This document shows, one piece after another, positions 3,343 to 53,923 of a DNA stretch of 64,000 nt. Positions within the stretch are counted from its first letter, which is position 1; each line of letters opens with the position of its first letter. A model generated the notes under the pieces. The model ran no database searches, was not told where the DNA came from, and saw only the letters and a program-made list of their open reading frames with translations. The position numbers and the translations under genes were made by a program. The stretch is from Candidatus Tectimicrobiota bacterium (lineage in GTDB: Bacteria; JACPUC01): NCBI GenBank assembly GCA_016192455.1, contig JACPUC010000028.1, positions 46,260 to 110,259 on the forward strand, read 5' to 3'.

Positions 3343-3450
3343 GGGAGCGCCGGGGAGTCTTGTGCCGCGCGCCGCGGCGCCGCCGCGTGGATGGTGGTTG
3401 GCGCAAGCATCGCCACCGCCAGCGGGCAGACGTGGAGAGGCGAGAGCAGC

Positions 3451-3759
3451 GTGATTAAAGCCGATCTCGTAGACACCGTGTACCAAAAGGTAGGTCTGTC
3501 ACGAAACGAGGCTGCCCATATCGTCGAGGTCATCTTCTCGGTTATGAAGGAAGCGCTGCGCAACGGTGAGGATGTGCAGGTTGTCGGTTTCGGCAACTTT
3601 AAGATTCGCCAGAAGAGGACGCGCGTCGGGCGGAATCCCAAGACCGGCGAGGAGATCATGATCACCTCGCGCAAGGTGCTCACCTTCAAACCCAGCAGAA
3701 ACCTGCGCGACATTGCGAACGGCAAGGTTGGCAGGCCCCATGAGGCGCCGCTGGCCTGA
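3451..3759 (+). CDS. ihfA: Integration host factor alpha / HU-family DNA-binding protein
   Basis: Small DNA-bending protein of the HU/IHF family, 102 aa from a GTG start. It begins VIKADLVDTVYQKVGLS and carries the DNA-binding arm GRNPKTGEEIMITSRKVLTFKPS, with VVGFGNFKIRQK before it. GTG at 3451 is preferred over the further upstream GTG because GGAGAGG sits about ten bases before it and homology starts there. A MerR regulator follows 138 bases later, an order common in Deltaproteobacteria-like genomes, where pheT is often the upstream neighbour. IhfA is preferred over HU because of the sequence and this linkage. Confidence 0.88.
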   Translation: MIKADLVDTVYQKVGLSRNEAAHIVEVIFSVMKEALRNGEDVQVVGFGNFKIRQKRTRVGRNPKTGEEIMITSRKVLTFKPSRNLRDIANGKVGRPHEAPLA

Positions 3760-3897
3760 ACGCGCGGCGGCGTCGGCCGTTGCAACCATGCGGGTGGGTA
3801 ACGGTTGACAGAACCGAGGGGAGCTGACGTTCAGTGGTGAGGGTGCGGCCTCGGCGTCGCCCCGGACGACCAGTGCGGCAGGCTGCCGTGCCGCTGG

Positions 3898-4263
3898 ATG
3901 CCAGGAAACATGGCTAGTACTATCCCGGATAAGATGTTCTTCAAGATCGGCGAAGTCGCTGACATCACCGGCATCAAGCCCCATGTGCTGCGCTACTGGG
4001 AGTCCGAGTTCAAGCTCCTGAAGCCGGCGAAGAATAAGTCGGGGCAACGCATCTACCGCCGTCGCGATGTCGAGGTTGTGCAGCAGATCAAGCAGCTTCT
4101 CTACGAGGAGTCGTATACCATCGCAGGGGCGAAGAAGAAGATCGCGCGGCGCTTCGGCGAGGAAGTTGAGAATGGCAATGGCGCCGACCTCGCCGTGGCT
4201 CGTCGCGTTTTCCAGGAGGTGCGAGGAGAGCTAATGGAAATTCTAAGTATTTTAAAGAATTAG
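3898..4263 (+). CDS. MerR-family transcriptional regulator
   Basis: A 121-aa regulator with an N-terminal winged helix-turn-helix: [21 protein letters not shown], then [18 protein letters not shown], typical of the MerR DNA-binding domain (about residues 14-80). The C-terminal part is a short helical region without the metal-binding cysteines of CueR or MerR, so a metal sensor is unlikely. It is the small MerR protein usually found beside ihfA; its targets are unknown. The start may be ATG 3898 or ATG 3910 (MASTIPDKM). The sequence turns AT-rich at the 3' end. Confidence 0.88.
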
Positions 4264-4340: not shown

Positions 4341-5162
4341 TCAGGGCCGCCCTCCGTCGCCCCCCGTAAGCTGGTGGCCCAGGTAGAACGTCCGCAGCTC
4401 AGCTTCCCAAGCGCGACTGCCGGAAGCCTCCCATTGGAACGGCAGATCGACGATCTCCCCCGCTTGGGTGATGCCGGGCGCGGCTTCGAGCGCGGCCCGC
4501 AGAATGCGCCGTTGCTCATCCGCCTCTCCAGGTCTCCCCACCGTATGCCCCATGGGGAAATCAAGGAAGGCAGCACGAGGCATCCGTACCAATGCCGCGA
4601 TGTCCCGCGCCAGCACCAGGCAAATGGTGGGAATCCCCCGCTCCTCGATGCCGCGCGCAACCAGACCCACGGTCTGGTGGCAGACGGGTCAAAGCGGCAG
4701 GAGGAGCACCAGGTCAGTGTGCTGCGCGGCGAGCTGCTTGGCGAGCTCTGGCGTGACGAGCTGCAGCAGCTTTGTGCGCTGGTAAAACTGCCCGGTGATG
4801 GAGAAGTGCCAGGGCGCAACCTCGCCGATCACCCCCTGAGTTTCCAGCTCGAGCAGGCGCGTCAAGGGGAAGATGCAGTTGATGTCCCGCTCGCCAACAT
4901 AGCGCACCGGCGCCGTATGCGCAAAGGTCAGCTCCTGCGGCGGGACCTGCCGAGGCAGGCGCACGACTCTGGGGTCGTTCTTGCTTTGCAGCGGCGTCTC
5001 ACCGTTGCAGTAGATGGCCGCGGTGCTGATCATCGCCACGCGACACTCGGCCAGCGGTTTCGTGAGCGCGGCCCAGGGAGCCTCGTCGTGCACCGACCAG
5101 GCATAGGGGCCATAGGTCTTCGTGAAGAGCTCATCCACGAGTTGCAGGTAGTTGAACGGCAC
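4341..5162 (-). CDS. Selenoprotein of the glycine/sarcosine/betaine/D-proline reductase B family (in-frame UGA)
   Basis: Two open frames on the minus strand, before and after a TGA at 4691-4689, are in the same register and together give one protein. The junction reads VLLLPL-U-PVCHQTVGLVA, a UxxC redox motif like that of GrdB-family proteins (Selenoprotein B, PF07355 type). The N-terminal part (WAALTKPLAECRVAMISTAA) and the tail (FLDFPMGHTVGRPGE) fit that family. An 8-bp hairpin starts 13 bases after the U (4678-4660). I chose GTG 5162 (VPFNYLQLVDELF) because AGGGG lies upstream and homology begins there; ATG 5279 would add 39 weakly conserved residues. The protein is about 273 aa, shorter than true GrdB. 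Substrate unknown; it stands alone with no GrdE partner beside it. Confidence 0.82.
4660..4678 (-). promoter_or_regulatory. SECIS-like hairpin after UGA 4691-4689
   Basis: On the minus strand ACCAGACC, loop GTG, GGTCTGGT forms a perfect 8-bp stem with a 3-base loop. It begins 13 bases after the U of the UGA, close to the spacing of bacterial SECIS elements, and contains GGTC, as in the apical part of the E. coli fdhF element. Confidence 0.6.
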
Positions 5163-5448
5163 GGCGCGACATCCCCTGAGGTGAATGGAGTCCTCGGCGC
5201 TCTCCTTTCCGCTGACCAGAACGGCCTGGTCGAGAGTAGCCGGGGGTCGTATGGTAGCTCCCTTCCGGCAGCTTGCCAAGCGAAGTTCGCATCGTCGTCT
5301 TGCCCTACCTGGCGCCTATCGCTATGATCAGGGTGCGGATGGACACCTGCCCGGAACCGCGCCGACCGCGGAGTTCCTTCTCCTTCCCATTCCCTCGGCG
5401 CGACGCGCCGGTCGTAGGCGAGCGTCAGGGCTTTGAGGCGCAGTACGG

Positions 5449-5886
5449 ATGAGCTCCACCGTCATGCTGTTCGTGCAGGGGTTCCATCTGCTCGCCGCCA
5501 TGGTGGTGGTGGGCGGCGTCATCTTCCTGCGCGCTCTGCTCATTCCAGCAACACGGCGGCTCGAGGCGCCCGCGGGAGATGTTCTCTTGCAACGCGTCCA
5601 TCGTCGCTTCCGCATCCTCCTCTGGGTTGCCATGCCCGTGCTTTTCGCCAGCGGCGTGTTCAACATGCTCGACAAGGCATTCAAGGGGATTCAGGCGCCG
5701 AGTTACATCGGGACCTTGGGTGTGAAGATCATGCTCGCTCTCCTCGTCTTCAGCATCCTCCTGCTGCTGACGCTGCCGGTCAGAAGCTTCGCACCCTTCC
5801 AGGCGCAGCGAGATCGCTGGCTCGTCATCTCCATCATCCTCGCGGTTCTCGTCGTCGGCCTGGCCGGTTACCTGCGGTTGATGTAG
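5449..5886 (+). CDS. CopD-like integral membrane protein
   Basis: 145 aa with four predicted membrane segments: about residues 5-28, 53-71, 86-107 and 122-143. The pattern (first helix FHLLAAMVVVGGVIFLRALLIP, second WVAMPVLFASGVFNML, third VKIMLALLVFSILLLL) resembles the CopD/DUF2269-type family of small four-helix proteins, some of which have copper roles. A histidine in helix 1 (QGFHLLAAM) is the only obvious ligand. It lies between the divergent selenoprotein gene and the secreted cytochrome and may be part of a respiratory context, but nothing proves this. Family assignment is moderate and function is unknown. Confidence 0.68.
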   Translation: MSSTVMLFVQGFHLLAAMVVVGGVIFLRALLIPATRRLEAPAGDVLLQRVHRRFRILLWVAMPVLFASGVFNMLDKAFKGIQAPSYIGTLGVKIMLALLVFSILLLLTLPVRSFAPFQAQRDRWLVISIILAVLVVGLAGYLRLM

Positions 5887-6191
5887 GGCGCTCCCCGCCT
5901 ACCCCGTTCGCCTTACCTTCCTGCCTCGGCGCCGCTTCACCTTGCCGGCCTGGCGCCGGGCGTGGCGGGGGTGGCATCCGGCGATTCCGCACCACGCTTC
6001 CTCGCCAGACTCGGGTTATTGCTCCAACGTAACAGGCGGCGCCTGAGAGAACTGCGGAGGCGGGAATAAGGTGCTGCGCATCAGTGTTATAGAACATCGG
6101 ATTGGCTGCAGCACCGGCAAACCCTGAACCCCACAGCCAGGCATGGCGCCAAAATTTCGGCATAGGGTCGAATCGAGGAGGAAAACGTATC

Positions 6192-6878
6192 ATGAGATCG
6201 AAGCGAACCATCTCCGCACTCCTGACATTGATCGCGCTGCTGCTGGTGGTGTCCCAGCCTGGCACAGCCGAGATGTTGTCGCCCCAGGCCACGCGGCAGG
6301 CTGAGAGGGTGCCGGTTGTTGCCATGCAGCCTGGTGCCACGCCAGCGCTGCAGGTAGCCCAAGGCATGAACCCCTGCGCCGCAAAAGCCAACCCTTGCGC
6401 CGCGAAGGCAAACCCCTGCGCCGCAAAAGCGAACCCCTGTGGGGCGGCGGCGAACCCCTGCGCCGCGAAGAGCGGTGGTCCCACGCCGATCCGCGCCGAC
6501 TCCATTCGTGACCATGGCAAGCTCGTCGCCATGGGGAAGGACTTGTGGAATGATCGCAAGCTCGGCACCTCCGGCCTTACCTGCATGAACTGCCACGTGA
6601 ACCATGCGCTGCTCAACCTCGACATGACGAAAGGCCGCTTCCCCCACTTCGTGAAGATGCCGAACGACATCGTGACGCTCGATCAGATGATCAACTTCTG
6701 CATGGTGAACCCCATGAAAGCCAAGCCTCTCGAGGCCAACAGCATCACCATGACCGCCATTGCGGCCTATTTCAACCAGCTCGTCGATGAGTACAACGCG
6801 AAGCCTGCCGCAGCCCCGGGCGCCAGCAAGGGCAAGGCGAAAACGAGCGGACCAGCCAACCCCTGCGCAGCCAAATAA
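6192..6878 (+). CDS. Secreted monohaem c-type cytochrome with NPCAAK repeats
   Basis: 228 aa. The start ATG 6192 is supported by GGAGG eleven bases upstream. Residues 1-26 form a Sec signal peptide (RTISALLTLIALLLVVSQPGTA). After a linker come five 7-residue repeats NPCAAKA (about residues 60-94) and one more NPCAAK closes the protein. In between is a cytochrome domain with one haem motif CMNCH (C131, C134, H135), GKDLWNDRKLGTSG before it and NFCMVNPMKAKPL after it, the latter giving a possible Met ligand. This arrangement recalls SoxA/TsdA-type cytochromes. The cysteine-rich repeats could bind metal or attach the protein, which is inference. A strong hairpin follows the stop. Confidence 0.78.
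   Translation: MRSKRTISALLTLIALLLVVSQPGTAEMLSPQATRQAERVPVVAMQPGATPALQVAQGMNPCAAKANPCAAKANPCAAKANPCGAAANPCAAKSGGPTPIRADSIRDHGKLVAMGKDLWNDRKLGTSGLTCMNCHVNHALLNLDMTKGRFPHFVKMPNDIVTLDQMINFCMVNPMKAKPLEANSITMTAIAAYFNQLVDEYNAKPAAAPGASKGKAKTSGPANPCAAK
6369..6473 (+). repeat. Tandem 21-bp repeat inside the cytochrome gene
   Basis: Five consecutive 21-base units (the last incomplete), each starting AACCCCTGCGCCGC or a close variant, encode NPCAAKA, NPCAAKA, NPCAAKA, NPCGAAA, NPCAAKS. An isolated sixth copy encodes the last six residues at 6858-6875. The units are in frame, so copy number can change without breaking the gene. Confidence 0.9.
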
Positions 6879-9649: not shown

Positions 9650-9821
9650 GGAACGGTGGTGGCGCTTCTCGCGTCGGCGTCGGCGGGGGATATGGAGAAG
9701 GAGCACGCCGCGAACGAGAGCGGCGCCACCGCATTTCACGGCTTCCCCGTCGAGAAGCTCCCCAGCAACAAGCGAAGGTTTCATTCTTACCCCTGGCCGT
9801 AGGGTGAGGAGAGCGCTCGGC

Positions 9822-10835
9822 ATGCTCTCGTGGAGGCGTCTGCGGCGATTGTTGCTGCCCAGCTCTCCGCCGCGTCGCCGGTGGGTGGCGACGCTCCTCC
9901 TCGCCTTCATCGCCACCGTCGGCTGGTCTACCGCCGCGAGCGCGGCGCAGGCTGCCGCACCCACCCCGCCAGCTCCTGCAGCTCAGGAACCGATGGTGGT
10001 CATCCCGGCCGGCCCCTTCATCATGGGGAGCACACGGTCCGAGCGCGACTACGGCTATCGCCTCGATGAGACACTCCACAACAGCGCGACGGCCCGCACC
10101 TATGGCTGGTTCGAAACAGAAACACGTCAAACTGTAGAGCTGCCAACCTACTCTATCGACCGCCTGCTCGTCACCAACGAGCAGTACCAGCGCTTCGTCA
10201 CAGGTGCGGCTCACCCCGCCCCCTTTGTCGATGAAGCAACCTGGAAGAGCTACGGCCTCATCCACCCGTACAAGACCGCGCAGCGGTTCCTCTGGCAGGA
10301 GACCTCCTTCCCCGTTGATCGCGGCAAGCACCCCGTGGTCCTCGTCAGCCATGCCGATGCCGCGGCCTTCTGCGCCTGGCGCGGCAAGCGGGAGGCCCGG
10401 CCCTTGCGCCTGCCAACCGAGGCGGAGTGGGAGAAGGCGGCGCGCGGCACGGACGGCCGCGCCTTCCCGTGGGGAAACGAGTTTGACCCAACGCGGCTGA
10501 ACAGCTTCGACCGGGGACCTTACGACACATTGCCGGTAGGAAGCTACCCGCGCGGGGTAAGCCCATACGGGGTGCACGATATGGCGGGGATGGTCTTCGA
10601 GTGGACGGCGACCGCCGGCGCGAGGCCGGGGACATTCATGGTGAAGGGAGGATCGTGGGATGACCTGCCCGGCGTCACGCGGAGCGCCGCCCGCCACGAT
10701 CGCCCGGCGGCCCTCAAGCACGTCCTGATCGGCTTCCGCTGCGCCGCCGAGGGCGCGGTGCGCGGCGCCCTGCCCAGCACCGCGACCGGCACGCCTGCCG
10801 GCGGCCCGCAGCCTCCGCCCTTGCCGCTACGTTAG
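9822..10835 (+). CDS. Secreted formylglycine-generating-enzyme-fold (SUMF1) protein
   Basis: 337 aa from ATG 9822, with GAGGAG eleven bases before. A basic N-terminus and hydrophobic segment (RWVATLLLAFIATVGWSTAASA, about residues 20-41) form a signal or anchor, then a proline-alanine linker. The rest is an FGE-sulfatase domain: MVVIPAGPFIMGS, LLVTNEQYQRF, RLPTEAEWEKAARG, FPWGNEFD, GVHDMAGMVFEWT, VKGGSWDD and GFRCA. The two active-site cysteines of true formylglycine-generating enzymes, expected near the C-terminus before the GFR motif, are not seen (the segment reads RSAARHDRP), so oxidation of sulfatases is unlikely. Its role is unknown. The stop overlaps that of the convergent VOC gene by four bases. 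Confidence 0.82.
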   Translation: MLSWRRLRRLLLPSSPPRRRWVATLLLAFIATVGWSTAASAAQAAAPTPPAPAAQEPMVVIPAGPFIMGSTRSERDYGYRLDETLHNSATARTYGWFETETRQTVELPTYSIDRLLVTNEQYQRFVTGAAHPAPFVDEATWKSYGLIHPYKTAQRFLWQETSFPVDRGKHPVVLVSHADAAAFCAWRGKREARPLRLPTEAEWEKAARGTDGRAFPWGNEFDPTRLNSFDRGPYDTLPVGSYPRGVSPYGVHDMAGMVFEWTATAGARPGTFMVKGGSWDDLPGVTRSAARHDRPAALKHVLIGFRCAAEGAVRGALPSTATGTPAGGPQPPPLPLR

Positions 10836-11332
10836 TCCGGGAACTCCTCGGGGATGTTATGGCGATGCAGCCCGCGTTTATCGGCTTCGTCTCTCCAGGC
10901 CTGGGCATCCCAGCCGTCTGGAACCTCTTTCGGCGATGAGATTTCGAGGACGTTCCCGTCGGGGTCCTCGAAGTAGGTGATCGTGGTCAGGTCCTCGATG
11001 TGCAGGTGAGGCCCCTTGAGCACCTTCACCCCCTTCTCGCGCAGCCATTCCGTCGCCTTCTCCACCGCCTCGGCGCTCTCCAGCTCAAACGCCACATGAT
11101 TCAGGCCCGGCCGCTGGCGGTGGTTGTCCGCTTTCTCCCCCGGCACCTGGTAGAGCGCAATGTTGTGGAAGAAGAGCTCCGCCTTGCCATGCTGACCCCA
11201 GTTCATCCAGACGACGCGGCCGGGCACCCGCCCCGCCGGCTTCAGACCGAGGATGTCGCGGTAGAACTTCTCGGAGCGCTCCAGGTCCGTCACATTGATG
11301 TTGACGTGAGCCAGCCCGAGAGGCTTGATCAT
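10832..11332 (-). CDS. VOC-family (glyoxalase/bleomycin-resistance/dioxygenase) protein
   Basis: 166 aa starting MIKPLGLAHVNINVTDLERSE at ATG 11332, preceded by AGGTGA. One complete VOC unit pair is visible: first half GLAHVNINVTDLERSEKFYRDILGL, second half PGLNHVAFELESAEAVEKATEWL, closing with TYFEDPDGNVLEI. Metal ligands expected in this fold are the His of LAHVN, the His of LNHVAF and the Glu of VLEI. Such proteins include extradiol dioxygenases, epimerases and lyases; the substrate is not predictable. It ends DKRGLHRHNIPEEFPD. The 3' end overlaps that of the plus-strand gene before it. Confidence 0.85.
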   Translation of the reverse strand: MIKPLGLAHVNINVTDLERSEKFYRDILGLKPAGRVPGRVVWMNWGQHGKAELFFHNIALYQVPGEKADNHRQRPGLNHVAFELESAEAVEKATEWLREKGVKVLKGPHLHIEDLTTITYFEDPDGNVLEISSPKEVPDGWDAQAWRDEADKRGLHRHNIPEEFPD

Positions 11333-11529
11333 CGGTTCACCTCCACTCGCCGGCGCCTGCATCCCTGGTCCCCAGCCGCAACGACGGGCTCTCCCGCCCC
11401 ACCTCGCGCGCCGAAAAAGACCGGTCCAGGCGACCTGCCGGCATTGTCTTCAGTAGATGATGGTCGTGGAAACGATAGGCAATGGCGTCCCCGGCGTCAA
11501 GCCGCGGCGCGGGCCGCGCAGATGCGCCT

Positions 11530-12342
11530 TCAGGCCATGGGATGGCGGCGCATGAAATCGAGGGTCACGCGGTTGAACTCGTCCGCCTGCTCCATGAGCG
11601 CCAGATGCCCGCCTTGCGGGAAGAGGTGGAACTCGGACCCCGGAATCAGCTCATGGACCCGCCGCGAATAGCTCGGCAGGGTGATCTGGTCCTCGGAGCC
11701 GACGGTCACCAACGTCGGGCAGGCAATCCGCCGCAGGCGATCGGCGGTGTCATGCAGGAGGTCCGCCTCGTACTGCCGGATGACCGGCGTGAGCGGCTGC
11801 GTCTCGAGCCGCTGGCGCGACCTCGCGATGGCCAGCTCCACCAGCTCCGGGTGGGCGTTCTGGAAGCTGGCGGAGAAGAGCCAGGTGGCGCTGTTGAGGG
11901 CCATGAGGTCGCGATCTCCGATCTCCAGGAGGCGCCTTCGCACCTGCATCTGAAAGCGCAGGTGCGGCAGGCGCGGACCGTCGGCATAGGTGCTGTGCAG
12001 GGCCAGGGTGTGCACCATCGCCGGCTCGTTCAGCGCCAGCTCCTGGCCGATGAGCGAGCCGAGGGAGAGGCCGCCGATGTGGGCGCGCTCGATGCCGACG
12101 GCGCGCATGAGGGCCGCCGTGTCCTCCGCCATGAGCCGCACGGTGTACGGCGTCTCCGGCGCGTCTGACAAGCCGATGCCGCGGTGATCGAAGATGAGGC
12201 AGCGGTGCTCTTTCGTGTAGTCGCGAAGCTGCAATGCCCAGAGCGTGTGGTCGCAGCCTGTTCCCATGATGAGGACGAGGGGCTCGCCTTCGCCGTGCAG
12301 CTCGTAGTACATGCGGATGCCATTCGCCTCGGCGTGCGGCAT
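11530..12342 (-). CDS. Alpha/beta-fold hydrolase
   Basis: 270 aa from ATG 12342 (MPHAEANGIRMYYELHG), with GGGAGG five bases upstream; an upstream start at 12393 lacks such a site. The oxyanion region is LIMGTGCDHTLWALQL, followed by FDHRGIGLSD. The nucleophile elbow is GGLSLGS (Ser), the acid is probably Asp in TVGSEDQITLP, and the base is His in FPQGGHLALME. This is the esterase/haloperoxidase-like group that includes 3-oxoadipate enol-lactonase. Nothing in the neighbourhood fixes the substrate. It is divergent from the molybdenum hydroxylase gene. Confidence 0.88.
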   Translation of the reverse strand: MPHAEANGIRMYYELHGEGEPLVLIMGTGCDHTLWALQLRDYTKEHRCLIFDHRGIGLSDAPETPYTVRLMAEDTAALMRAVGIERAHIGGLSLGSLIGQELALNEPAMVHTLALHSTYADGPRLPHLRFQMQVRRRLLEIGDRDLMALNSATWLFSASFQNAHPELVELAIARSRQRLETQPLTPVIRQYEADLLHDTADRLRRIACPTLVTVGSEDQITLPSYSRRVHELIPGSEFHLFPQGGHLALMEQADEFNRVTLDFMRRHPMA

Positions 12343-43714: not shown

Positions 43715-44455
43715 TCACTTCGCCACCCCAGCTCGCCGGCGCAACAGAAGGCCACGGCGTGCCGCAGCCAGCGCTCCCGTGGCCCACTCCATCATAGCCC
43801 TCCCCCACCAGGTCCAGGCACGTATCCCCAGGAGCAGCAGGAGGATGGCGCCGTATTTCGCCGGCGAGCTGATGTCCGACTTCACCAGCAAAAGGAAGTG
43901 CAGCACCCCCAGGAAGCCGATCACGTAGATCAGGCGATGGAGCTGCAGCCAGCGCTTGCCGAGGCGCCTGATCATCTTCTTCGTGGAGGTGACGGCAAGC
44001 GGCACCAGGAGGGTGAACGCGGTTGCGCCGATCGTGATGTACGGCCGCTTCGTCACATCCTCGAGGATCATCCGCCAGGCGAAGAACTGGTCGAGCACGA
44101 GGTACGATGCCGCATGCAGGCAGGCATAGGTGAAGGCGAAGAGGCCCAGCATGCGCCGGTAGCGGATGAGCCAGGTCCAGCCGCTGAGGCGCCGGGCCGG
44201 TGTGATCGCCAGGGTGATGAGAAGGAAGCGGAGCGCCCAGCGGCCGTTGCGGGCGATGATCGCAGTGATGGGATTGGCCCCCAGGTTGGCGCTCCACGCA
44301 TCCCAGGCAAGAAGCGCCAGGGGCGCCAGGCAGGCGAGAAACAGGGTAGGCTTCAGGAGCCAGAGCAGGCGTTGCGGCGCCGTCACGCTGTCACCTCGGA
44401 TCACCACCATGCTCGACAGAATACTGGGGAATACGGCAGGAGCTCCGGGCGGCAT
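43715..44455 (-). CDS. msrQ: MsrQ haem-binding membrane subunit of the MsrPQ methionine sulfoxide reductase
   Basis: 246 aa. Six hydrophobic segments, including LFLACLAPLALLAWDAW, LRFLLITLAITPARRL, MLGLFAFTYACLHAASYLVL, LVPLAVTS and LIYVIGFLGVLHFLLLV. The haem ligand histidines are in YACLHAASYL and LQLHRLIYVIGFLGVLHF. MsrQ takes electrons from the quinone pool to MsrP. The start codon overlaps the msrP stop (TGATG), so the pair is one transcription unit and translationally coupled. The first Met may be at 44410 instead. Confidence 0.9.
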   Translation of the reverse strand: MPPGAPAVFPSILSSMVVIRGDSVTAPQRLLWLLKPTLFLACLAPLALLAWDAWSANLGANPITAIIARNGRWALRFLLITLAITPARRLSGWTWLIRYRRMLGLFAFTYACLHAASYLVLDQFFAWRMILEDVTKRPYITIGATAFTLLVPLAVTSTKKMIRRLGKRWLQLHRLIYVIGFLGVLHFLLLVKSDISSPAKYGAILLLLLGIRAWTWWGRAMMEWATGALAAARRGLLLRRRAGVAK

Positions 44456-45441
44456 CAGTAGTTCTTCGTCAGGTCCATGCCGGAGTAAAGCTTCGCCACC
44501 TCGTCTCCGTAGCCGTTGAACATCAACGTCGGGCGCTTCAGGAACTCCCCCAGGCGGCGCTCGCGCTTCTGGCTCCAGCGCGGATGATCGACGTTGGGGT
44601 TGACGTTCGAGTAGAAGCCATACTCCTGCGGCGCCTGCATGTTCCAGCTCGTCGGCGGCGGCTGCTCGATGAAGCGCATGGCCACGATAGACTTGATGCT
44701 CTTGAAACCGTACTTCCAGGGGACGACGAGACGGATGGGCGCGCCGTTCTGGTTTGGCAGCACCTTGCCGTAAAGCCCCACCGACAGGATCGTCAGGGGA
44801 TGGGTGGCCTCATCCAGGCGCAGCCCTTCGCGGTAAGGCCACTCGAGCACCGACCCGAAGAGCGACGGACGCTGCCCCGGCATCTGCGCCGCATCCAGCA
44901 GCGTCTCGAAGGCGATATACTTCGCCTTCGAGGTGGGGCCGAATCGTTTCACCACCTCCTTCAGGGGAAACCCCACCCAGGGGATGACCATCGACCAGGC
45001 CTCCACACAGCGCAGACGGTAGATGCGCTCCTCAAGCGCATTGGGTTTGATCAGGTCGTCCAGGTCGTAGACGCCGGGCTTTTCGCACTCCCCACTCACC
45101 TTGATTGTCCAGGGCCGAGCCTTCAACGATCCCGCATGGCTCGCTGGATCACCCTTGTCGGTCCCGAACTCATAGAAATTGTTATACGTGGTGATGTCCT
45201 TGTAGGCGTTGAGCTTTTCGCTCGTGCTGTAGGGACTCTTCGCCAGCGGCTCAAGCTTCCCGCCGGTCGGCGCCGACGCATCGGCGCGCGCCGCGGCCGA
45301 ACCGAGCAGCAGCGGCGTCGCCGATGCCGCTGCGGCGGCGAGGGCCGCACCGCGCAGGAATCGGCGCCGATCCCAGAACAACTTTTCGTCGGTGATCTCG
45401 CTCGACCTCACCTCCGAAGGCTTCCTTACCTTGATCAACAT
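44455..45441 (-). CDS. msrP: MsrP catalytic molybdopterin subunit (periplasmic methionine sulfoxide reductase)
   Basis: 328 aa from ATG 45441, with GAGGGT upstream; a longer frame upstream is not credible. A twin-arginine signal ([20 protein letters not shown]) directs the folded protein out. The Moco-binding Cys lies in [51 protein letters not shown] and [14 protein letters not shown] are typical YedY/MsrP signatures. With MsrQ it repairs oxidised methionine in periplasmic proteins. It fits with the molybdenum use seen at 12651. Confidence 0.93.
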
Positions 45442-46192: not shown

Positions 46193-46322
46193 ATTTAACT
46201 TATTGAAGAAAAGTAAGTTGTGGGATCGTGGGAAGGAACTGCCTGGTAGCTATTAGGCTTTTGCAGCGGTGCGCGCCGCATTTGCGCCGCGTCCGTGCAT
46301 GCGGCCGGCCAAGAGGCACGGT

Positions 46323-46350
46323 GAAGTTCCCCCGAAAGCGGGGGAACTTC
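46323..46350 (-). terminator. Perfect hairpin directly after the grdB-like stop codon
   Basis: GAAGTTCCCCCG, loop of four, CGGGGGAACTTC: a 12-bp perfect stem that starts two bases after the stop. No T run follows. It may end transcription or protect the 3' end of the hyuAB-grdEB mRNA. Confidence 0.6.
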
Positions 46351-46352
46351 AG

Positions 46353-47684
46353 TCACACGGGGGCAACCCAGTCAAAGATGCGCGGCGCCTGGACTTCGGT
46401 TGTCAGCGCTTGGGTTGCCACCTCCACGAGGGCGCGGCGGAATTTTCGCTCCTCCTCTTCAGGCAAGTCGGGATTGCCGACCGGATGGGTGATGCCGGCG
46501 CCTCTGATGATGCGTGGCGCACCCACCATCATGGCCACGGAGGTCAGGGTGGCGATGAGTGCGGTCGGCAGGCCGTTGGCCTCCAGCTCCTTCGCCATCG
46601 CTGCCCCGCAGCGCACCCCGGTGCCTCACGTGGCGGTGAGGATGACGCCGTGCACGCCGTGGGCGCGCAGTTCCTGCGCGATGCCACGGGCCATCGCTTG
46701 CGCCTTCTCGAGGTAGGTGGCGCAGCCGGCGGTGGTGTAGAGTCGATCATGCAGCGCGCCGATGGCCCCCGCCCGCTCCAGCTCCCGCAGTACGTCGAGC
46801 GGCACGAGGCGATTCGGGTTGTCGAGCGCATGCGTCTTGTCATAGCCGGCGTGGATCGTTTCGTATCTTCCGGCCTCGAACTGGTCCTCCCGCCCGATCT
46901 CATAGGAGGCGTAGCGGCTCGACCGCAGGGACGGCAGGTGATCAGGGTTGCCGCGCGGCACCAGGCCGCTCTCCGTCACCAGGGCGAGGCGCGCCCGCCG
47001 CAGATCGGCCAGCGGGGGAGCGCAGGTCACGAGAGGAGGCGGCTGGAAGGGGACCTCCGTCTTGAACGCTTCTCCCGCCAGCTTGCGCAGGAGCATGGTG
47101 ACAGCGCGCTGCGAGGCGAGCTCGGTCTGGGGGACGTTGACGCGGACGCCGCGCGGCAGGCAGCCCTCCGCCTCGCCGCCGAGGAGGGCTTCCCCCCGTC
47201 CCAGCCGCAACGCCAGGGCCGCCATGGTGGTCAGCGCCTGCCGCATGGACGAGGCGCTGGGACCGGTGCGGACGATGGCGAGGGAACGTGAGCGCCGAAA
47301 GAACTCAGCGGCGGGGTTCTCTTCATGCAGCCCGGTAAGGGCAGGAATCCCGAAGCGCTCATGCACCGCCGTGCACATGGCACCGCAGGCCAACCCGTAG
47401 CGCCCGGCGTTGAAGGCCGGCCCGGCGATGAAGAGCGCGGCATCGCAGGCCTGCATGAGTTCGAGGGCACAACGCACCGCGCGCTCCTCCTGCTCGGCCA
47501 CATAGTTGTCGCCGCAGATGATCGTGGCGACAATCCGCGCCTGCTGGCCGAGCTTCTCCTGCAAGGAGACTCCGGGGCCGACGGGACCTTCCCGCAGCCG
47601 CGGCTCGAGATGCGCCTGCGATTCGCCTCCAAGCTGCCCGAAGAACTGGTTCAGGTAGTGCACGATCCTGATGGGCGGGCTCAC
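46353..47684 (-). CDS. GrdB/GrdF/GrdH-type reductase selenoprotein (in-frame UGA)
   Basis: Selenoprotein subunit of a glycine/sarcosine/betaine reductase-type component B. 443 aa when TGA at 46628-46626 is read as Sec353; both halves are in the same frame. The N-terminus RIVHYLNQFFGQLGGESQAH, IICGDNYVAEQEERAV and GPAFNAGRYGLACGAMCTAV are classic GrdB. The active site reads ILTAT-U-GTGVRCGAAMAKELE; true GrdB has UGTCTRCGAT, so the middle Cys is Gly here. It lies downstream of the GrdE-like gene in the hyuA-hyuB-grdE-grdB operon. No GrdA, GrdC or GrdD is in the window. Confidence 0.85.
46599..46613 (-). promoter_or_regulatory. SECIS-like hairpin after UGA 46628-46626
   Basis: On the minus strand CGCTGC, loop GGG, GCAGCG: a perfect 6-bp stem beginning 15 bases after the U. 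The loop is smaller and lacks the GGTC seen after the other two UGA codons, so this one is less certain. Confidence 0.45.
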
Positions 47685-47789
47685 CGTGCGTGCCCCCTTA
47701 TTTCACGTAGACGGGTGCGAGGGAGCCGCGCCCCCTCGCGCTCCCCTATTACGCAAGCTGCCGCGCAGCTTGCGGCGAGATCGTAGCTC

Positions 47790-49049
47790 TCACAGTGGCA
47801 CAGCGCGCAGCCGGGTGAAGCCGAGGGAGCTGTTGCTGTTGGGGATGTAGGAGATGGAGACAGTGGTTGCGGCATGCGGGTCGCCGTTGATGGCGGCGAA
47901 GGTGTCCCCTCCCAGGAGGCGCGAGGCCGCCGGCAGGTGGACGCGCTCCTCGATGTTGCCGGCGCTGACGATGGCGTCGGCGGCCGCCCGCAGGTCGATG
48001 AGCGGCAGACCCTCTCCCGCTTCGTTGAGCTGTTCGCTGTCGATGAGGACGGTTTTCACGCCGGCACGCTCGCAGGCCTCGCAGTGTTCCATCAGGTCGT
48101 AGTCGCCGGCGCCGGCCGCCTCCTTGGTCATCACCACCCCGTCCGCCCGCAGCGTCTGCCGCAGCAGGCGCGCCGCCAAGCGGGCCGCGCGCTGCTTGTC
48201 CTCCAGGCGGACCGGCTGCGGGGCGAGCACCAGGCCGCGGAAGTCGAGCTGCTCGCCGTGCAGCCGCAGGAGATCCTCGACGAGTGGATGGCGTTGGTAG
48301 GAGTAGGTGTTGTTCTTTACTCCCGGAGGCATGTCGTAGTGGAACGAGACGACCGCGCCATCGAGCATCTCCGTCGGTTGCAAGAGGAACGGCAGGGCCT
48401 CCCGGATGCGCGCGCCGTAAACGAAGGTCTCGCGCAGGTCGCCGATGCCGTGGAGGAGGCAGAGGTAGGCCACCTTGGGGAGCGGAGAGGCGAGGGCGCC
48501 GTCGCCACTGCGAGGGTAGGTCTCGCGCCGCGGCGCGGGATTGCCGAGCGCCAGGCGGGCAAGGTAGACCGCCGCCCGCAGACCCGCCGCGCGCACGGCC
48601 CGGCAGTAGGCGAGCTTGTTCATGCCGGCGGCCGGCCTGGTGCGCAGGACGACCTGGTGCAGATCGGCAAGGGGGGTGAGCTGGCGGGTTTCGGCATGCA
48701 GGTCGAGGAGGCCGCCGACAACGCCGGCCATCTCTCCCGTTTCAACCACGGCGACGCCGCGCAGCACCCTGGTCACGCCTTCCCCCACCAACCCCGGCGG
48801 CGCCACCCAGGAGGGGAAATAGGACCCATCCTCCTTAACGCAGGGCTCGCAGATGTCAAGGACGTTGAGGATGCGCGACCCATCCCCCGGCGCGGCCAGC
48901 TCGACGCGCACCTCGGCGAGACCGCTGCGCTCTTCAAGGTGGCGCTCGAGTTCGGCGCGGTCGATGACGAGCGTCGTTCCCCGCAAGCAGGAGGCGGGGC
49001 CGAAGCAAACCGCCTCGATCGGGTAGAGCTGCTTCTCTAGCGTCAGCAT
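47790..49049 (-). CDS. GrdE/GrdG-type reductase component B proprotein homologue, without the pyruvoyl cysteine
   Basis: 419 aa from ATG 49049 (LEKQLYPIEAVCFGPASCLRG), with GGGAAGAG upstream. LNVLDICEPCVKEDGSYFPSW and the later CLLHGIGDLRETFVYG and PTEMLDGAVVSFHYD match the GrdE/GrdG family, which is cleaved at a cysteine near residue 242 to form a pyruvoyl group. Here residues 198 to about 330 contain no Cys and the segment reads MPPGVKNNTYSYQRHP, so self-cleavage to a pyruvoyl enzyme seems lost. It pairs with the GrdB-like gene 105 bases downstream. Either chemistry has changed or a different cofactor is used. Confidence 0.83.
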   Translation of the reverse strand: MLTLEKQLYPIEAVCFGPASCLRGTTLVIDRAELERHLEERSGLAEVRVELAAPGDGSRILNVLDICEPCVKEDGSYFPSWVAPPGLVGEGVTRVLRGVAVVETGEMAGVVGGLLDLHAETRQLTPLADLHQVVLRTRPAAGMNKLAYCRAVRAAGLRAAVYLARLALGNPAPRRETYPRSGDGALASPLPKVAYLCLLHGIGDLRETFVYGARIREALPFLLQPTEMLDGAVVSFHYDMPPGVKNNTYSYQRHPLVEDLLRLHGEQLDFRGLVLAPQPVRLEDKQRAARLAARLLRQTLRADGVVMTKEAAGAGDYDLMEHCEACERAGVKTVLIDSEQLNEAGEGLPLIDLRAAADAIVSAGNIEERVHLPAASRLLGGDTFAAINGDPHAATTVSISYIPNSNSSLGFTRLRAVPL

Positions 49050-49075
49050 GAGGCTCTTCCCTGGCAACCGGGGAC

Positions 49076-50824
49076 TCAGGCGCGGCGCGTCCACTTGCGC
49101 AGCGCCTCCGTGGCCGGCAGATCGACGTTCAAAGTGAGCGGGTCAATGACCACCCCGTACAGCTCGCGCGCCGCCGCCGGGGTCACGTAGCCATTCGCCA
49201 CGTCGTCCGCGACCAGCTCGATGGCGCGCTCGAAGGGATCGCCGAAGCCTCCCCCGCCGCTCGAGGCGACTTCGAGCACGTCGCCGCTGCGCAGTTCGTA
49301 GAGGGCGTTGACGTCGATCTCCCGCTCCGTCCCATCCGGGCGTCGCAGGCTCAGGTGCGAGAGGACGCCGCCGCGGCCGCCGGCCAGGCCCGGCGGCGTG
49401 GTCTCGGGGCGCAGGCCCCCGCCGGCGGTGGCGCAAAGCACCTGGTCCGTCTCCATGCGCCAAATCGCCCTCGTCCCCAGCCCGCCCCGCCACTTGCCGG
49501 CGCCGCCGCTGTCCGGACGGTATTCATAGAGAAGCTGGGTGTACGGGTAAACAAACTCGAAGAGCTCGGGGTCCGCCGCACGTGCTCCGCCGGAGGAGCT
49601 GATGGGGCCGATGTGCCCCCAGCCATCGTAGCCCTCCGTCGCGCCCGACCCCGGCTTGCACTGGTTGCTCAAGCTCGCCGTCCAGCGGCCGGTGCGGGGA
49701 TTGTAGGCCGTCTTCATGGGGCCGCACCAGCGGCCCCAGGGGGCCTGCACCTGGCTGGGCACGGCTTGCGCCAGGGCCAGCCAGCCGGCCTCGACCAGGG
49801 CGGCGCAGGTGACGAGGGTGCAGCCGCTGGTGGCGGCGGGCGGACGCGGGTTGGTGACGGTCCCGTCGCGGGAGATGACGGAGACGGGCGCGGTCGAGCC
49901 GGCCGTCACCGGCACCTCATCCTGGAGCGACGAGAAGAGGGCGATGTAGGTGCAGGAGGTGGTGTTCGACAGCGGGCTGTTCACGTAGCCCTTCACTTGG
50001 GGGTCGGATTCGGAGTAGTCGAAGGTGATCGCGTCCTCGTTGACGGTGAGGGTCAGGCGGACGCCGACGAGGCGGTCCTTGACGATGCCGTCGTGATCCA
50101 AGAACCGCTCCGCCTTGTAGACGCCGTTCGGGATGCGGCGGATTTCGCGCCGCATCTGCTCCTCGGTACCTTTCAGGTAGGTCTCGATGGCCGTCCCGAC
50201 CAACGCCATGCCGAACTTCGCGGCCAGCCCCTGGAGTCGGCGCTCACCCACCACGCAGGCGCCGATCTGGCACTGCAGGTCGCCCTCGACGATGTCCGCC
50301 AGGCGGATGTTGAGGAGGAGGAACTCCCACAGATCGCTGCGCCGCACTCCCCCCTCGTACAGCTTTACGGGAGGGATGCGGATGCCTTCCTCCCAGACGT
50401 TGCTGGCCTCCGGGTTGTACCCCGACGATCCCTTCGCCCCCACGTCGGCGTGGTGCCCGCGCGTCATCACCCAGAAGGCGACGTCGCCGGCGACCATGAC
50501 CGGTTTGGCGACGGTGAAGTCGGGAAGGTGATTGTTGCCGTGGAAGGGGTCGTTGAGGAGGTAGACGTCGCCGTCGCGGATTTCCTCCCGAAAGCGCGCC
50601 GCGATGGCATCCATGGCGAACGGCGTCGATCCCATGAGAACGGGGATGAACGCCGTTTGGGCGACGAGGCGCCCCTGGCGGTCGAAGATGGCGGTGATGA
50701 AGTCACGCACCTCGCTGAAGATCGGCGAGCGCGAGGTGCGCAGCATGCTCTCGGCCATCTCGCGGGTCACCGTCTGCAAGGTGCTGACAATCAGCGCCAA
50801 CTGAATGGGGTCTGGCTTGGTCAT
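49076..50824 (-). CDS. hyuB: N-methylhydantoinase B / 5-oxoprolinase-type subunit HyuB
   Basis: 582 aa from ATG 50824 (MTKPDPIQLALIVSTLQTV), which overlaps the hyuA stop by four bases (ATGA) and has GAGGGG upstream. Typical of the hydantoinase B family: ESMLRTSRSPIFSEVRDFITAI, VYLLNDPFHGNNHLPDFTV, GHHADVGAKGSSG, YSESDPQVKGYVNSPLSN and GGGFGDPFERA. Together with HyuA it performs ATP-dependent opening of hydantoin or 5-oxoproline rings; relatives also include acetone carboxylase and acetophenone carboxylase subunits, so carboxylation cannot be excluded. Confidence 0.92.
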   Translation of the reverse strand: MTKPDPIQLALIVSTLQTVTREMAESMLRTSRSPIFSEVRDFITAIFDRQGRLVAQTAFIPVLMGSTPFAMDAIAARFREEIRDGDVYLLNDPFHGNNHLPDFTVAKPVMVAGDVAFWVMTRGHHADVGAKGSSGYNPEASNVWEEGIRIPPVKLYEGGVRRSDLWEFLLLNIRLADIVEGDLQCQIGACVVGERRLQGLAAKFGMALVGTAIETYLKGTEEQMRREIRRIPNGVYKAERFLDHDGIVKDRLVGVRLTLTVNEDAITFDYSESDPQVKGYVNSPLSNTTSCTYIALFSSLQDEVPVTAGSTAPVSVISRDGTVTNPRPPAATSGCTLVTCAALVEAGWLALAQAVPSQVQAPWGRWCGPMKTAYNPRTGRWTASLSNQCKPGSGATEGYDGWGHIGPISSSGGARAADPELFEFVYPYTQLLYEYRPDSGGAGKWRGGLGTRAIWRMETDQVLCATAGGGLRPETTPPGLAGGRGGVLSHLSLRRPDGTEREIDVNALYELRSGDVLEVASSGGGGFGDPFERAIELVADDVANGYVTPAAARELYGVVIDPLTLNVDLPATEALRKWTRRA

Positions 50825-52932
50825 CGGGAGGCCCCTCGGAGGCGGGCAAGGAGATCGTCGAGCGATGCTCCCGCCTGCAAGAGCAAGAAGTTGCCGTACT
50901 CGTCCACCTGCGCCTGGAAGGCCGGACTGATGACGATGCTGGTGGTCGGCAGCTCGATGATGGCGGGACCCTCGAGGCAATTGCCGTACTCGAGCCGCAC
51001 GCCGTCGTAGACGGGCGTGAGGGTGGGGGTGGGATCGAAGAAGACCTGCCGCCGTTCGATCAACGCCGCCGTCGCCTCCCGGCCCCGCCGCGGCAGGCTC
51101 TTGAAGCGCGGCTTCTCCGTCATCCCCTCGGCGGTGAGGCGCACGGTGATGACCTCCATGGGCACCTTGGGCAGATGGTAGCCGAAGAGGGCGTCGTGGC
51201 GGTGATGGAACAGGGCGGCCACCCGCCGCAGCTCCTCCTCCGTCACCGGCGCGTCGCCGTGGGGGAGGTCGATCTCGACTTCGTTGAATTGCCCCTCGTA
51301 GCGCATCTCGAACGACACCGTCAGGCGCATCCTCGCCTCCGCCACCCCCTCGGTGCGGAGCATCGCCGTGCCCTCCGCGGTCATGGCCGCCAGGGTCTCG
51401 TTGAGGCGGGCGACGTTCACCTCCGACAGCCGGCCCGGCATGGAGCGCACGAACTGGTGCTTCAGATCGGCCATCAGCATGCCGGCGCCGCAGAAGAGCG
51501 CCGATTCCTTCGGCACGATGATGAGGGAGATGTTAAGCTCGCGCGCCAAGGGTTCGGCGTGCAGCGGCCCCGCCCCTCCCGCGACCACCAAGGCGAACTC
51601 CCGCGGGTCGTGGCCGCGGCGCACCGACAGGAGGCGCATGGCCATCGCCATGGTGGTGTTGACGACCTTGTAGATGCCCCAGGCGGCCTCCTCGACGGTG
51701 AGTCCCAGGGGGCGCGCCGTGTGCTCCGCGATGGCGGCGCGGGCGCGGGCGGCATCGAGCAGCAGCTCGCCGCCGAAGAAGCGCTCCGGGTTGAGGTAGC
51801 CGAGCACCAGGTCGGCATCGGTGACGGTTGGCTTCTCGCCCCCGAAGGCGTAGCAGGCGGGACCGGGCATGGCGCCGGCGCTGGCCGGGCCGACGCGCAG
51901 CACGCCCGCGCCGTCCACCCAGGCGATGCTCCCGCCGCCGGCGCCGACCGTGTGGATGTCGAGGCTCTGCGCGGCGATCCGGTGCCCCCCCACCTCGGCC
52001 GCCGTGGTCAGCGACATCCTGCCGTGGTGGACCAGGGAGACATCGAAGCTCGTCCCCCCCATGTCGATGGTCATGAGCTCTTGCAGTCCGTGCTGTCGGC
52101 CATAGAACAGCCCGGCGACGGGACCCGCCGCGGGACCCGACAGGAGCGTCTGCACCGCCAGGCGCTGCGACACCCGCGGCGCCACCACGCCGCCGTTCGA
52201 TTGCATCAGCCGCAGCTCGCCGCGGAACCCCGCCGCCGCCAGGCGCTCCACGAGGTCGTCCAGGTAGGCGCTCAACACCGGCCCCACGGCCGCGTTCAGC
52301 ACCACCGTGCTGGTGCGCTCATAGGCCCGCACCTGGGGCAGAATGGCGCTCGAGACCGAGAGGTAGCACGTCGGCAGGACTTCGCGACACAGCTCGTGGA
52401 GTCGCTCCTCGTGGGTGGAATTGAGGAACGAGAAGAGGAGGCTGATGGCGACCGCCTCGACGCCGCGCCGGCGGAACTGCTCGAGCGCCTCCCTGGCGCA
52501 GGTCTCATCCAGCGGCAGCACGACGGCGCCGTCGCGGTCGACGCGCTCGCGCATGCCGGCGATGAGCGAGCGCGGCACCACCGGAGGCGGCGGGTTCACC
52601 TTGGCATAGTAGTAGGTCTCGCGCAGGCCGCGCCGCATCGCCAGGAGGTCCCGAAAGCCATCGGTAGTCAGCAGGGCGGTGCGGGCCAAGCGGCCCGTCA
52701 ACACGGCATTGGTGGTGATGGTGGTGCCGTGGACGATGAGGCTGACGCTGCCGAGAAAGGTGGGGAGATCGCTGCCGAAGGTTGCGGCGGCCTTCCCCAG
52801 GCCGTCGATCACCGCCTTGGCGGGGGATTCCGGAGTGCTGAGCACCTTGAAGAGCCGGCTCTGGCCCTGCTCGTCCATGACCACGAAATCGGTGAACGTC
52901 CCCCCGACATCGATTCCAACCTTGACTCGCAT
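50821..52932 (-). CDS. hyuA: N-methylhydantoinase A / 5-oxoprolinase-type subunit HyuA
   Basis: 703 aa from ATG 52932 with GAGGGTGACC upstream; the longer frame from 53028 is not needed. VKVGIDVGGTFTDFVVMDEQ is the actin-like ATP-binding start, followed by SLIVHGTTITTNAVL, GLRETYYYAKVNPPPPVVPRSL, QSNGGVVAP and MTIDMGGTSFDVSLV, all characteristic of hydantoinase A/oxoprolinase. It is the first gene of the minus operon hyuA-hyuB-grdE-grdB. The promoter at 53069-53098 carries an operator between its hexamers. Confidence 0.93.
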   Translation of the reverse strand: MRVKVGIDVGGTFTDFVVMDEQGQSRLFKVLSTPESPAKAVIDGLGKAAATFGSDLPTFLGSVSLIVHGTTITTNAVLTGRLARTALLTTDGFRDLLAMRRGLRETYYYAKVNPPPPVVPRSLIAGMRERVDRDGAVVLPLDETCAREALEQFRRRGVEAVAISLLFSFLNSTHEERLHELCREVLPTCYLSVSSAILPQVRAYERTSTVVLNAAVGPVLSAYLDDLVERLAAAGFRGELRLMQSNGGVVAPRVSQRLAVQTLLSGPAAGPVAGLFYGRQHGLQELMTIDMGGTSFDVSLVHHGRMSLTTAAEVGGHRIAAQSLDIHTVGAGGGSIAWVDGAGVLRVGPASAGAMPGPACYAFGGEKPTVTDADLVLGYLNPERFFGGELLLDAARARAAIAEHTARPLGLTVEEAAWGIYKVVNTTMAMAMRLLSVRRGHDPREFALVVAGGAGPLHAEPLARELNISLIIVPKESALFCGAGMLMADLKHQFVRSMPGRLSEVNVARLNETLAAMTAEGTAMLRTEGVAEARMRLTVSFEMRYEGQFNEVEIDLPHGDAPVTEEELRRVAALFHHRHDALFGYHLPKVPMEVITVRLTAEGMTEKPRFKSLPRRGREATAALIERRQVFFDPTPTLTPVYDGVRLEYGNCLEGPAIIELPTTSIVISPAFQAQVDEYGNFLLLQAGASLDDLLARLRGASR

Positions 52933-53037
52933 GGTCACCCTCGACTTCGCTCCCCACCCCTTGCCGCCGAGCGCCCGAGATGGCGACGCCTGATCGCCGC
53001 GTCCGACACCCCGAACTTTTTCCCTCAACCTTTCTGC

Positions 53038-53266: not shown

Positions 53267-53923
53267 ATGCCGCGGGTACAATCAAAAACGGACATCCTTG
53301 AGCGGCGACGACAGATCGCCCAGGCGGCATCGCGTGTCTTCAGCGAGAAGGGGTATGACGCCTGCACCCTGGATGACATTGCAGGGCTCCTGGACCTAAA
53401 GAAACCGTCCCTCTACTACTATATCAAGAGCAAAAAAGAGATCCTCTCCATCGTCCTCGATTTCGCCATTTCCGAGGTCTCCAGCAATCTCGAAGCCATT
53501 TGCCAATCGCAGGTGGATCCGGCTGAGAAACTTCAACGCGCGGTGGCGAATCATTTGAATACCCTGATCCGCCACTTCCACCCCGTCCGCGTGTACCATA
53601 ATGAACGCAAGGCCGTCTCCGCCAGCTACCTTTCAACCTACATTGCCAAACGTAAAAACTACGAGGTGATGTTTAAAGGTATCCTGCGCGAGGGAGTGCA
53701 AAAGAAACTCTTTTCGGTAAAGGATACCCGACTGACGACTTTTATGATTCTCGGCATGTGCAATTGGATCACGCAATGGTATCGACCCGGCGGGCCGCAC
53801 ACTCTTCCCGAAATTATTGGAGAGTTTACTGCCTTCATCCTCAGGGGCTTGGGATTAACGGGCAGAGCTGAAGACACCAATCGAAGAAGGCGAGGACGCA
53901 ACGATGGACTACGATCTTCCTGA
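53267..53923 (+). CDS. TetR-family transcriptional regulator
   Basis: 218 aa. N-terminal helix-turn-helix at about residues 10-60: RRRQIAQAASRVFSEKGYDA and TLDDIAGLLDLKKPSLYYYI, then KSKKEILSIVLDFA. The C-terminal ligand domain (about 65-200) is helical, with HNERKAVSASYLSTYIAKR. It overlaps the acyl-CoA dehydrogenase gene by 20 bases, so it is the first gene of that operon. Similar regulators often sense acyl-CoA thioesters, which would fit the genes that follow; the ligand is inferred, not shown. Confidence 0.92.
   Translation: MPRVQSKTDILERRRQIAQAASRVFSEKGYDACTLDDIAGLLDLKKPSLYYYIKSKKEILSIVLDFAISEVSSNLEAICQSQVDPAEKLQRAVANHLNTLIRHFHPVRVYHNERKAVSASYLSTYIAKRKNYEVMFKGILREGVQKKLFSVKDTRLTTFMILGMCNWITQWYRPGGPHTLPEIIGEFTAFILRGLGLTGRAEDTNRRRRGRNDGLRSS

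Follow-up and report, generated by a model that had tools for sequence, protein, structure and literature searches.

A predicted hydantoinase-type hydrolase encoded beside a Grd-type pair with a probable selenoprotein in a Candidatus Tectimicrobiota bacterium: a possible serial route for small cyclic amides

Results and Discussion

In a stretch of 64,000 nucleotides (the window) from contig JACPUC010000028.1 of a Candidatus Tectimicrobiota bacterium, whose draft genome comprises 4.46 Mb in 31 contigs and is 88% complete, the minus strand between positions 46353 and 52938 carries hyuA, hyuB, grdE and grdB (Table 1). The products of these genes, a predicted adenosine triphosphate (ATP)-dependent hydantoinase/lactamase-type hydrolase (HyuAB) and a Grd-type component B (GrdEB) that very likely contains selenocysteine (Sec), could quite plausibly work one after the other on the same small cyclic amide, a coupling that we propose tentatively. 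This serial reading is favoured because of the gene spacing, the retained HyuAB residues, the in-frame TGA with its hairpin, the Sec machinery, and the presence of GrdA and GrdC in the genome; because the genome holds a second, different hydrolase-grdEB row; and because of both the loss of the pyruvoyl site from GrdE and the way in which a glycine motif and a GrdE cysteine go together in 131 other GrdB genes.

Grd-type selenoenzymes have glycine, sarcosine, betaine, D-proline and fluoroacetate as known substrates. Were an ATP-dependent ring-opening hydrolase to supply one of them, the reach of the family would extend to cyclic amides or ureides, hydantoin and lactam breakdown would be linked to selenium-dependent reduction, and a broad branch of Cys-less, often GrdD-less Grd enzymes would become testable for substrates.

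The four-gene row

Gene calls combined with Pfam assignments for each gene (E-values from 4.9e-19 to 2.5e-148) bore out the single-strand row of four genes described in an earlier note on this DNA, together with its 4-base overlap of hyuA and hyuB and its 26-base gap between hyuB and grdE; a further 105 bases separate grdE from grdB. Given spacings of -4, 26 and 105 bases, the four genes are likely to be co-transcribed as one operon. The note had ended the row at 52932, which is the second in-frame ATG of hyuA; the start is taken here at 52938. A GTG at 49094 is an alternative, upstream start for grdE, and its use would make the gene run into hyuB. Scans yielded no T-run terminators, as against 3.0 by chance, and one promoter, as against 0.6 by chance.

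Probable selenocysteine in GrdB

The grdB frame is open only with read-through of the TGA at 46626-46628. The protein so obtained matched TIGR01918 across the TGA (residues 6-437; 462.1 bits, cut-off 65.45) and PF07355 (433.3 bits, cut-off 22), and is therefore a member of the Grd-family selenoprotein B group. Comparison loci were drawn from a named-genome scan (best 80 of 552 confirmed, plus four genomes behind named loci), from 10 of 400 genomes of one phylum and 18 of 395 of another (contig C35 of genome G487 being left out), and from 7 of 386 genomes domain-wide, the source genome included; an initial scan of named genomes that used GrdB as its sole query found none. The resulting 138 GrdB rows, which include the genome's own three and count four contigs twice, had TGA at the Sec site in 136 cases, TAG in one and one unresolved (132 of 134 with TGA once duplicate contigs were removed). 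Relative to the pattern UxxCxxC, the window protein (UGTGVRC) keeps the TGA and the last cysteine, with glycine in place of the middle one.

Directly downstream, bases 16-21 and 25-30 from the TGA paired at an average of 5.93 of 6 positions in 100 distinct sequences, a value exceeding that of every one of 1000 same-amino-acid shuffles (mean 5.84, maximum 5.90), and one base pair covaried, being T-A in 86 sequences, C-G in 13 and A-T in one. The genome also encodes a tRNA-Sec (75.5 bits) together with SelB and SelA, which adjoin each other and both score over cut-off. It is because of the conserved TGA, the covarying hairpin, tRNA-Sec, SelA and SelB that the window GrdB is very likely a selenoprotein. 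A plain stop at this codon would agree with a stop-to-stop reading of 352 residues, and is scarcely credible given that the two paralogs and nearly all of the GrdB rows have TGA there too, that homology continues beyond it, and that the hairpin covaries; on TGA conservation and hairpin covariation it was rejected.

Two side observations concern other GrdB genes. A Coriobacteriia GrdB (L101, ~4907-6202) has TAG exactly at the Sec position with homology continuing after it, for which UAG-coded Sec, sequencing error or decay are possible explanations. One Chloroflexi genome (G059, L133-L140) contains nine GrdB-profile matches, several of them by transporter-like genes, and the match on its contig C358 has an internal TAG.

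Identity of HyuAB

Membership of the hydantoinase/oxoprolinase superfamily was evident from the ATP motifs of HyuA (DVGGTFTD at residue 10, DMGGT at 292 and GAMPGP at 355) and from the D-H-D-H metal site of HyuB, which has Asp41, His99, Asp102, His124 and Tyr136 where CapB has them (numbering as in an excerpt of PMC8453981); HyuAB is accordingly predicted, from its sequence, to be an ATP-dependent hydantoinase/lactamase-type hydrolase. Caprolactamase (CapAB) is the closest relative, curated and solved alike, and shares the same ATP motifs and metal ligands; among solved structures, N-methylhydantoinase follows it (7hk5, E 5.5e-136 with HyuA). By way of contrast, CapB has a vicinal disulfide, Cys410-Cys411, which aligns with Ser-Ser in HyuB, and it is HyuAB that has a selenoprotein reductase as its neighbour. 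With 693.4 bits against the CapA model NF050156 and 395.3 against the CapB model, both under a cut-off of 1000, HyuAB was not assigned as a caprolactamase; nor was it assigned as an N-methylhydantoinase. Among the 120 relatives listed for HyuB, four showed 78-85% identity and the next 54%; these four and the window HyuB formed a long-stemmed clade with a Shimodaira-Hasegawa-like approximate likelihood ratio (SH-aLRT) support of 100 in a quick 41-row tree that carried a long-branch warning. The metagenome contigs recorded for the near relatives of GrdE (length 9043), GrdB (3280) and HyuB (2421-4044) show by these lengths no link between them; among the relatives of the three proteins at 73-85% are P0141-P0144, P0002 and P0021.

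Relationships of GrdEB

The top-scoring NCBIfam models for the window pair were those of the sarcosine reductase subunits GrdF and GrdG, with 472.6 of the 800 and 216.6 of the 780 bits of their cut-offs; the GrdG cut-off is strict, since the GrdG-type protein of Tissierella creatinophila falls under it too (554.7 of 780). Scores for glycine reductase component B (TIGR01917, 412.9 of 602.2), betaine GrdH (439 of 775), fluoroacetate FarE (146.3 of 675) and the D-proline reductase subunits PrdA (57.6 of 700) and PrdB (73.7 of 300) were likewise insufficient. Every matched subfamily model being below its cut-off, GrdEB was not accepted as a glycine, sarcosine, betaine, fluoroacetate or proline reductase.

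At the canonical pyruvoyl site of GrdE, SGNCVSACDK, the window protein reads SFHYDMPPG, and its relatives P0002, P0003 and the GrdE on contig C5 follow the pattern S-[FH]-HYD-[MI]-[SP]-P; the pyruvoyl-forming cysteine is absent from all three GrdE proteins of the genome (window, C5 and C31). Both GrdE-type proteins of T. creatinophila, an organism that breaks down creatinine via sarcosine (PMC5364220), keep that cysteine, and the second of them (SGNCVAACDK) adjoins a GrdB with a TTGTGT motif; we infer that these two are the sarcosine pair. FarE and betaine GrdI resemble the window GrdE in being without the processing cysteines (PMC10838667, excerpt); the farACEB cluster, unlike the window row, has a transporter and a radical-SAM gene and not a hydantoinase (same excerpt).

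A glycine-type GrdB motif (PMC9751293, excerpt) occurred in 82 of the 138 rows and in none of the genome's own three. When the own three and four duplicates were set aside, the remaining 131 GrdB genes comprised 79 with both the motif and a Cys-bearing GrdE, none with the motif and a Cys-less GrdE, 32 with neither, 11 with the cysteine alone and nine with no nearby GrdE. The GrdF motif from the same excerpt had no match among the 138 rows, not even in the T. creatinophila gene, and hence had no positive control. In a tree of 88 GrdB proteins the window sequence joined P0021 (support 100/100) and then C5 (100/97) within a 17-row clade (96/96), in another part of which the C31 GrdB was placed, while a separate 40-row clade (99/97) contained the glycine types along with the two GrdB genes of T. 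creatinophila. The window pair thus resembles sarcosine reductase in its best NCBIfam models and in having UGA at the same place, and differs from it in its GrdE site and in the clade of its GrdB.

Searches of solved structures with the GrdE and GrdB sequences gave no credible match. AlphaFold models were obtained for GrdE (predicted local distance difference test, pLDDT, 90.2; predicted template modelling score, pTM, 0.92) and for GrdB with Cys for Sec (90.6 and 0.57), in which a strand (346-351) precedes residue 353 and a helix (354-369) follows it. For the predicted GrdE fold there was no match in the PDB with an E-value of 0.001 or lower, and for the GrdB model no credible PDB fold match, one at E 4.8e-4 having template modelling scores of 0.18 and 0.13.

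Other grd genes in the genome

In all, there are three grdE-grdB pairs (window, C31 and C5), whose grdB genes have TGA at the corresponding position, along with a weak, partial fourth GrdB-profile match on C25 (25.4 bits). The C31 row (L016, 7537-11009) opens with an isochorismatase-family, N-carbamoylsarcosine-amidase-like gene directly followed by grdE and a TGA-containing grdB, for which pair GrdF and GrdG are again the top NCBIfam models. The best solved relatives of the amidase-like protein are N-carbamoylsarcosine amidohydrolases (E 1.6e-38 and 1e-35); its nearest NCBIfam models are biuret hydrolase and RutB, under both cut-offs. It has Asp, Lys and Cys aligned with those of N-carbamoylsarcosine amidohydrolase, which we take to be the active-site triad of that enzyme. 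The amidase of the creatinine route invoked in the earlier note therefore has a look-alike elsewhere in the genome, and each of the two hydrolytic steps in the known N-methylhydantoin route is mirrored by a similar gene next to a Grd pair. On C5 (L017, 8623-16070), grdE and a TGA-containing grdB precede an acyl-CoA-ligase-type gene and, at a greater distance, a gene of the UGSC family that likewise contains an in-frame TGA.

The same note had GrdA, GrdC and GrdD missing; at the locus itself this proved right. Absence of GrdA and GrdC from the organism was ruled out, as contig C1 encodes GrdC and then GrdA on the minus strand (L029, ~9814-11764), with TGA in the CFVU motif of GrdA and both proteins exceeding their NCBIfam cut-offs; no GrdD match was found in that stretch. 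The GrdD query that had no match in this 88%-complete genome did find GrdD, by tblastn, in 60 of 80 named loci. Among loci with both GrdC and GrdA, which may be clipped by contig ends, 18 of 25 outside the named set (6/6, 9/13 and 3/6) and 9 of 69 within it were without a GrdD match, and an excerpt of PMC9469722 likewise writes GrdEBCA. Loci of this kind fall in L158-L165, L188-L207 and L222-L224.

Precedents in the literature

No account of GrdB or a Grd reductase paired with a hydantoinase was found in the open-licence literature, so that what is described here is a known selenoenzyme type in a pairing new to the literature searched. An excerpt of PMC9768040 gives a sarcosine reductase cluster as trxB-trxA-grdA-grdCD-grdGF with no hydantoinase named there, and names a hydantoinase in betaine methyltransferase clusters; an excerpt of PMC2398784 reports pfam07355 (PrdB, GrdB) and UGSC selenoproteins from ocean samples, and the word 'hydantoin' does not occur in its text. 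Close parallels are Clostridium sp. FS41 and T. creatinophila, for which a single genome is reported to encode a hydantoin hydrolase, a carbamoylsarcosine amidase and a Grd reductase; in FS41, unlike here, the hydantoin hydrolase is reported to be ATP-independent and the subunit-B gene alone was found (PMC4417704, PMC5364220). Nor, in contrast to the window, did the sarcosine-type locus of T. creatinophila contain a HyuA or HyuB match.

A possible serial pathway and its alternatives

As proposed, HyuA would spend ATP in activating a ring amide, and the ring would be opened at the metal site of HyuB; GrdEB would bind the resultant linear N-substituted amino acid with no Schiff base being formed, Sec353 of GrdB would attack the alpha carbon and expel the nitrogen-bearing part, and the selenium-bound acyl fragment would pass to the GrdA selenoprotein and then to GrdC, both encoded elsewhere in the genome. 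The Sec chemistry is modelled on excerpts describing a D-proline reductase scheme (PMC3091704) and glycine reductase (PMC13188914). Because GrdE is without the pyruvoyl cysteine, as are betaine GrdI and FarE, it is not expected to form a Schiff base with a primary amine, and for that reason the nitrogen of the substrate is likely blocked, or the substrate likely has some other good leaving group; the best fits are ureido acids derived from hydantoins, or further acids whose nitrogen is blocked. As no GrdD match was found, the end product may be other than acetyl phosphate, acyl transfer to coenzyme A being a guess.

A narrower version, which we regard as doubtful, is that HyuAB opens a hydantoin-like ring and GrdEB directly reduces the ureido or N-acyl acid at the alpha C-N bond, giving (methyl)urea or an amide plus an acyl group on GrdA/GrdC, with no need of an amidase or GrdD; if true, this would be a new substrate class for Grd selenoenzymes. 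Creatine reductase, which converts creatine to N-methylguanidine and acetyl phosphate, would by analogy be the nearest chemical precedent.

Several results weigh against the serial reading. HyuA, HyuB and the C31 amidase each had no match (E 1e-6) in any of 127 other distinct GrdB loci, many of them clipped by contig ends and with no comparison genome closer than the same domain, and the HyuAB-GrdEB pairing was seen once. HyuAB lies under the cut-off of every curated family matched. The GrdD query had no match anywhere in the genome, at 88% completeness and without an in-tool positive control. Downstream of the TGA, the z-scores for fold energy did not stand out in the three GrdB genes (window -0.35, C31 -0.02, C5 +1.04, compared with -1.89 for GrdA, -2.37 for UGSC and a mean of -0.98 for 25 others), and the weight of the evidence on post-TGA structure is only in the fixed stem and its covariation, not in fold energy.

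The missing pairing in other GrdB loci would suit an arrangement in which the two enzymes are neighbours and not in series, HyuAB acting on one nitrogen compound and GrdEB reducing another, such as a halogenated or betaine-like acetate, in the manner of FarEB. Cys-less GrdE subunits are indeed known for FarE and betaine GrdI (PMC10838667, excerpt), and several GrdEB pairs of one Chloroflexi genome stand by transporter-like genes with no hydrolase match. The gap of merely 26 bases between hyuB and grdE, and the fact that another grdEB pair of this genome likewise follows an amide-hydrolase-type gene, nevertheless make this alternative somewhat unlikely. A route through sarcosine, with HyuAB as N-methylhydantoinase, the C31 protein yielding sarcosine and the GrdEB pairs as sarcosine reductases, is improbable. 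It would accommodate the solved relatives of the C31 protein (E 1.6e-38), the GrdF/GrdG models that top the scores for the window and C31 pairs, and the solved N-methylhydantoinase among the relatives of HyuA; yet those GrdF/GrdG scores are far under cut-off, the pyruvoyl cysteine that T. creatinophila has in its sarcosine-type GrdE is missing, the window GrdB falls outside the clade of the T. creatinophila gene, and the best NCBIfam models for the C31 gene, themselves below cut-off, are biuret hydrolase and RutB. Least probable of these is a self-contained, GrdA-independent reductase resembling D-proline reductase: the proposed PrdAB mechanism does operate without selenoprotein A (PMC3091704, excerpt), but PrdA needs a pyruvoyl group, which is missing here, the PrdA and PrdB models score a small part of their cut-offs, the genome has GrdA, and the middle cysteine of GrdB is a glycine.

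The hydrolase-to-reductase idea of the earlier note consequently survives in its gene row, the Sec machinery and the amidase-grdEB row on C31, and probably fails in the specific sarcosine pathway; its sarcosine-reductase reading is not borne out, given the Cys-less GrdE, models below cut-off and a GrdB in another clade.

Features of the locus and its flanks

Table 1. Positions of the four genes and associated features, numbered from the first letter of the window
Feature	Position	Strand	Families and remarks
hyuA, ATP-dependent hydantoinase/oxoprolinase alpha subunit (predicted)	50821..52938	-	PF05378/PF01968/PF19278; nearest curated model CapA
hyuB, hydantoinase/oxoprolinase beta subunit, predicted metal-dependent hydrolysis	49076..50824	-	PF02538, E 2.5e-148
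grdE, GrdE-type subunit of component B, without pyruvoyl-forming cysteine	47790..49049	-	PF09338, E 3.3e-93
grdB, selenoprotein-B-type subunit, 443 codons including one in-frame TGA	46353..47684	-	PF07355, E 9.6e-130; TIGR01918
In-frame TGA, grdB codon 353, predicted Sec in TAT-U-GTGVRCG	46626..46628	-	
Predicted hairpin resembling a selenocysteine insertion sequence (SECIS), CGCTGC-GGG-GCAGCG, directly 3' of TGA	46599..46613	-	
Perfect inverted repeat, 13-nt arms, one base past grdB stop; possible operon-end hairpin	46322..46351	.	
TetR-type regulator, divergent from hyuA	53267..53923	+	PF00440/PF17932

Elsewhere in the window, on the minus strand at 43715-45411, a molybdopterin oxidoreductase gene adjoins a ferric-reductase-type membrane gene, a pair that resembles MsrP/MsrQ.

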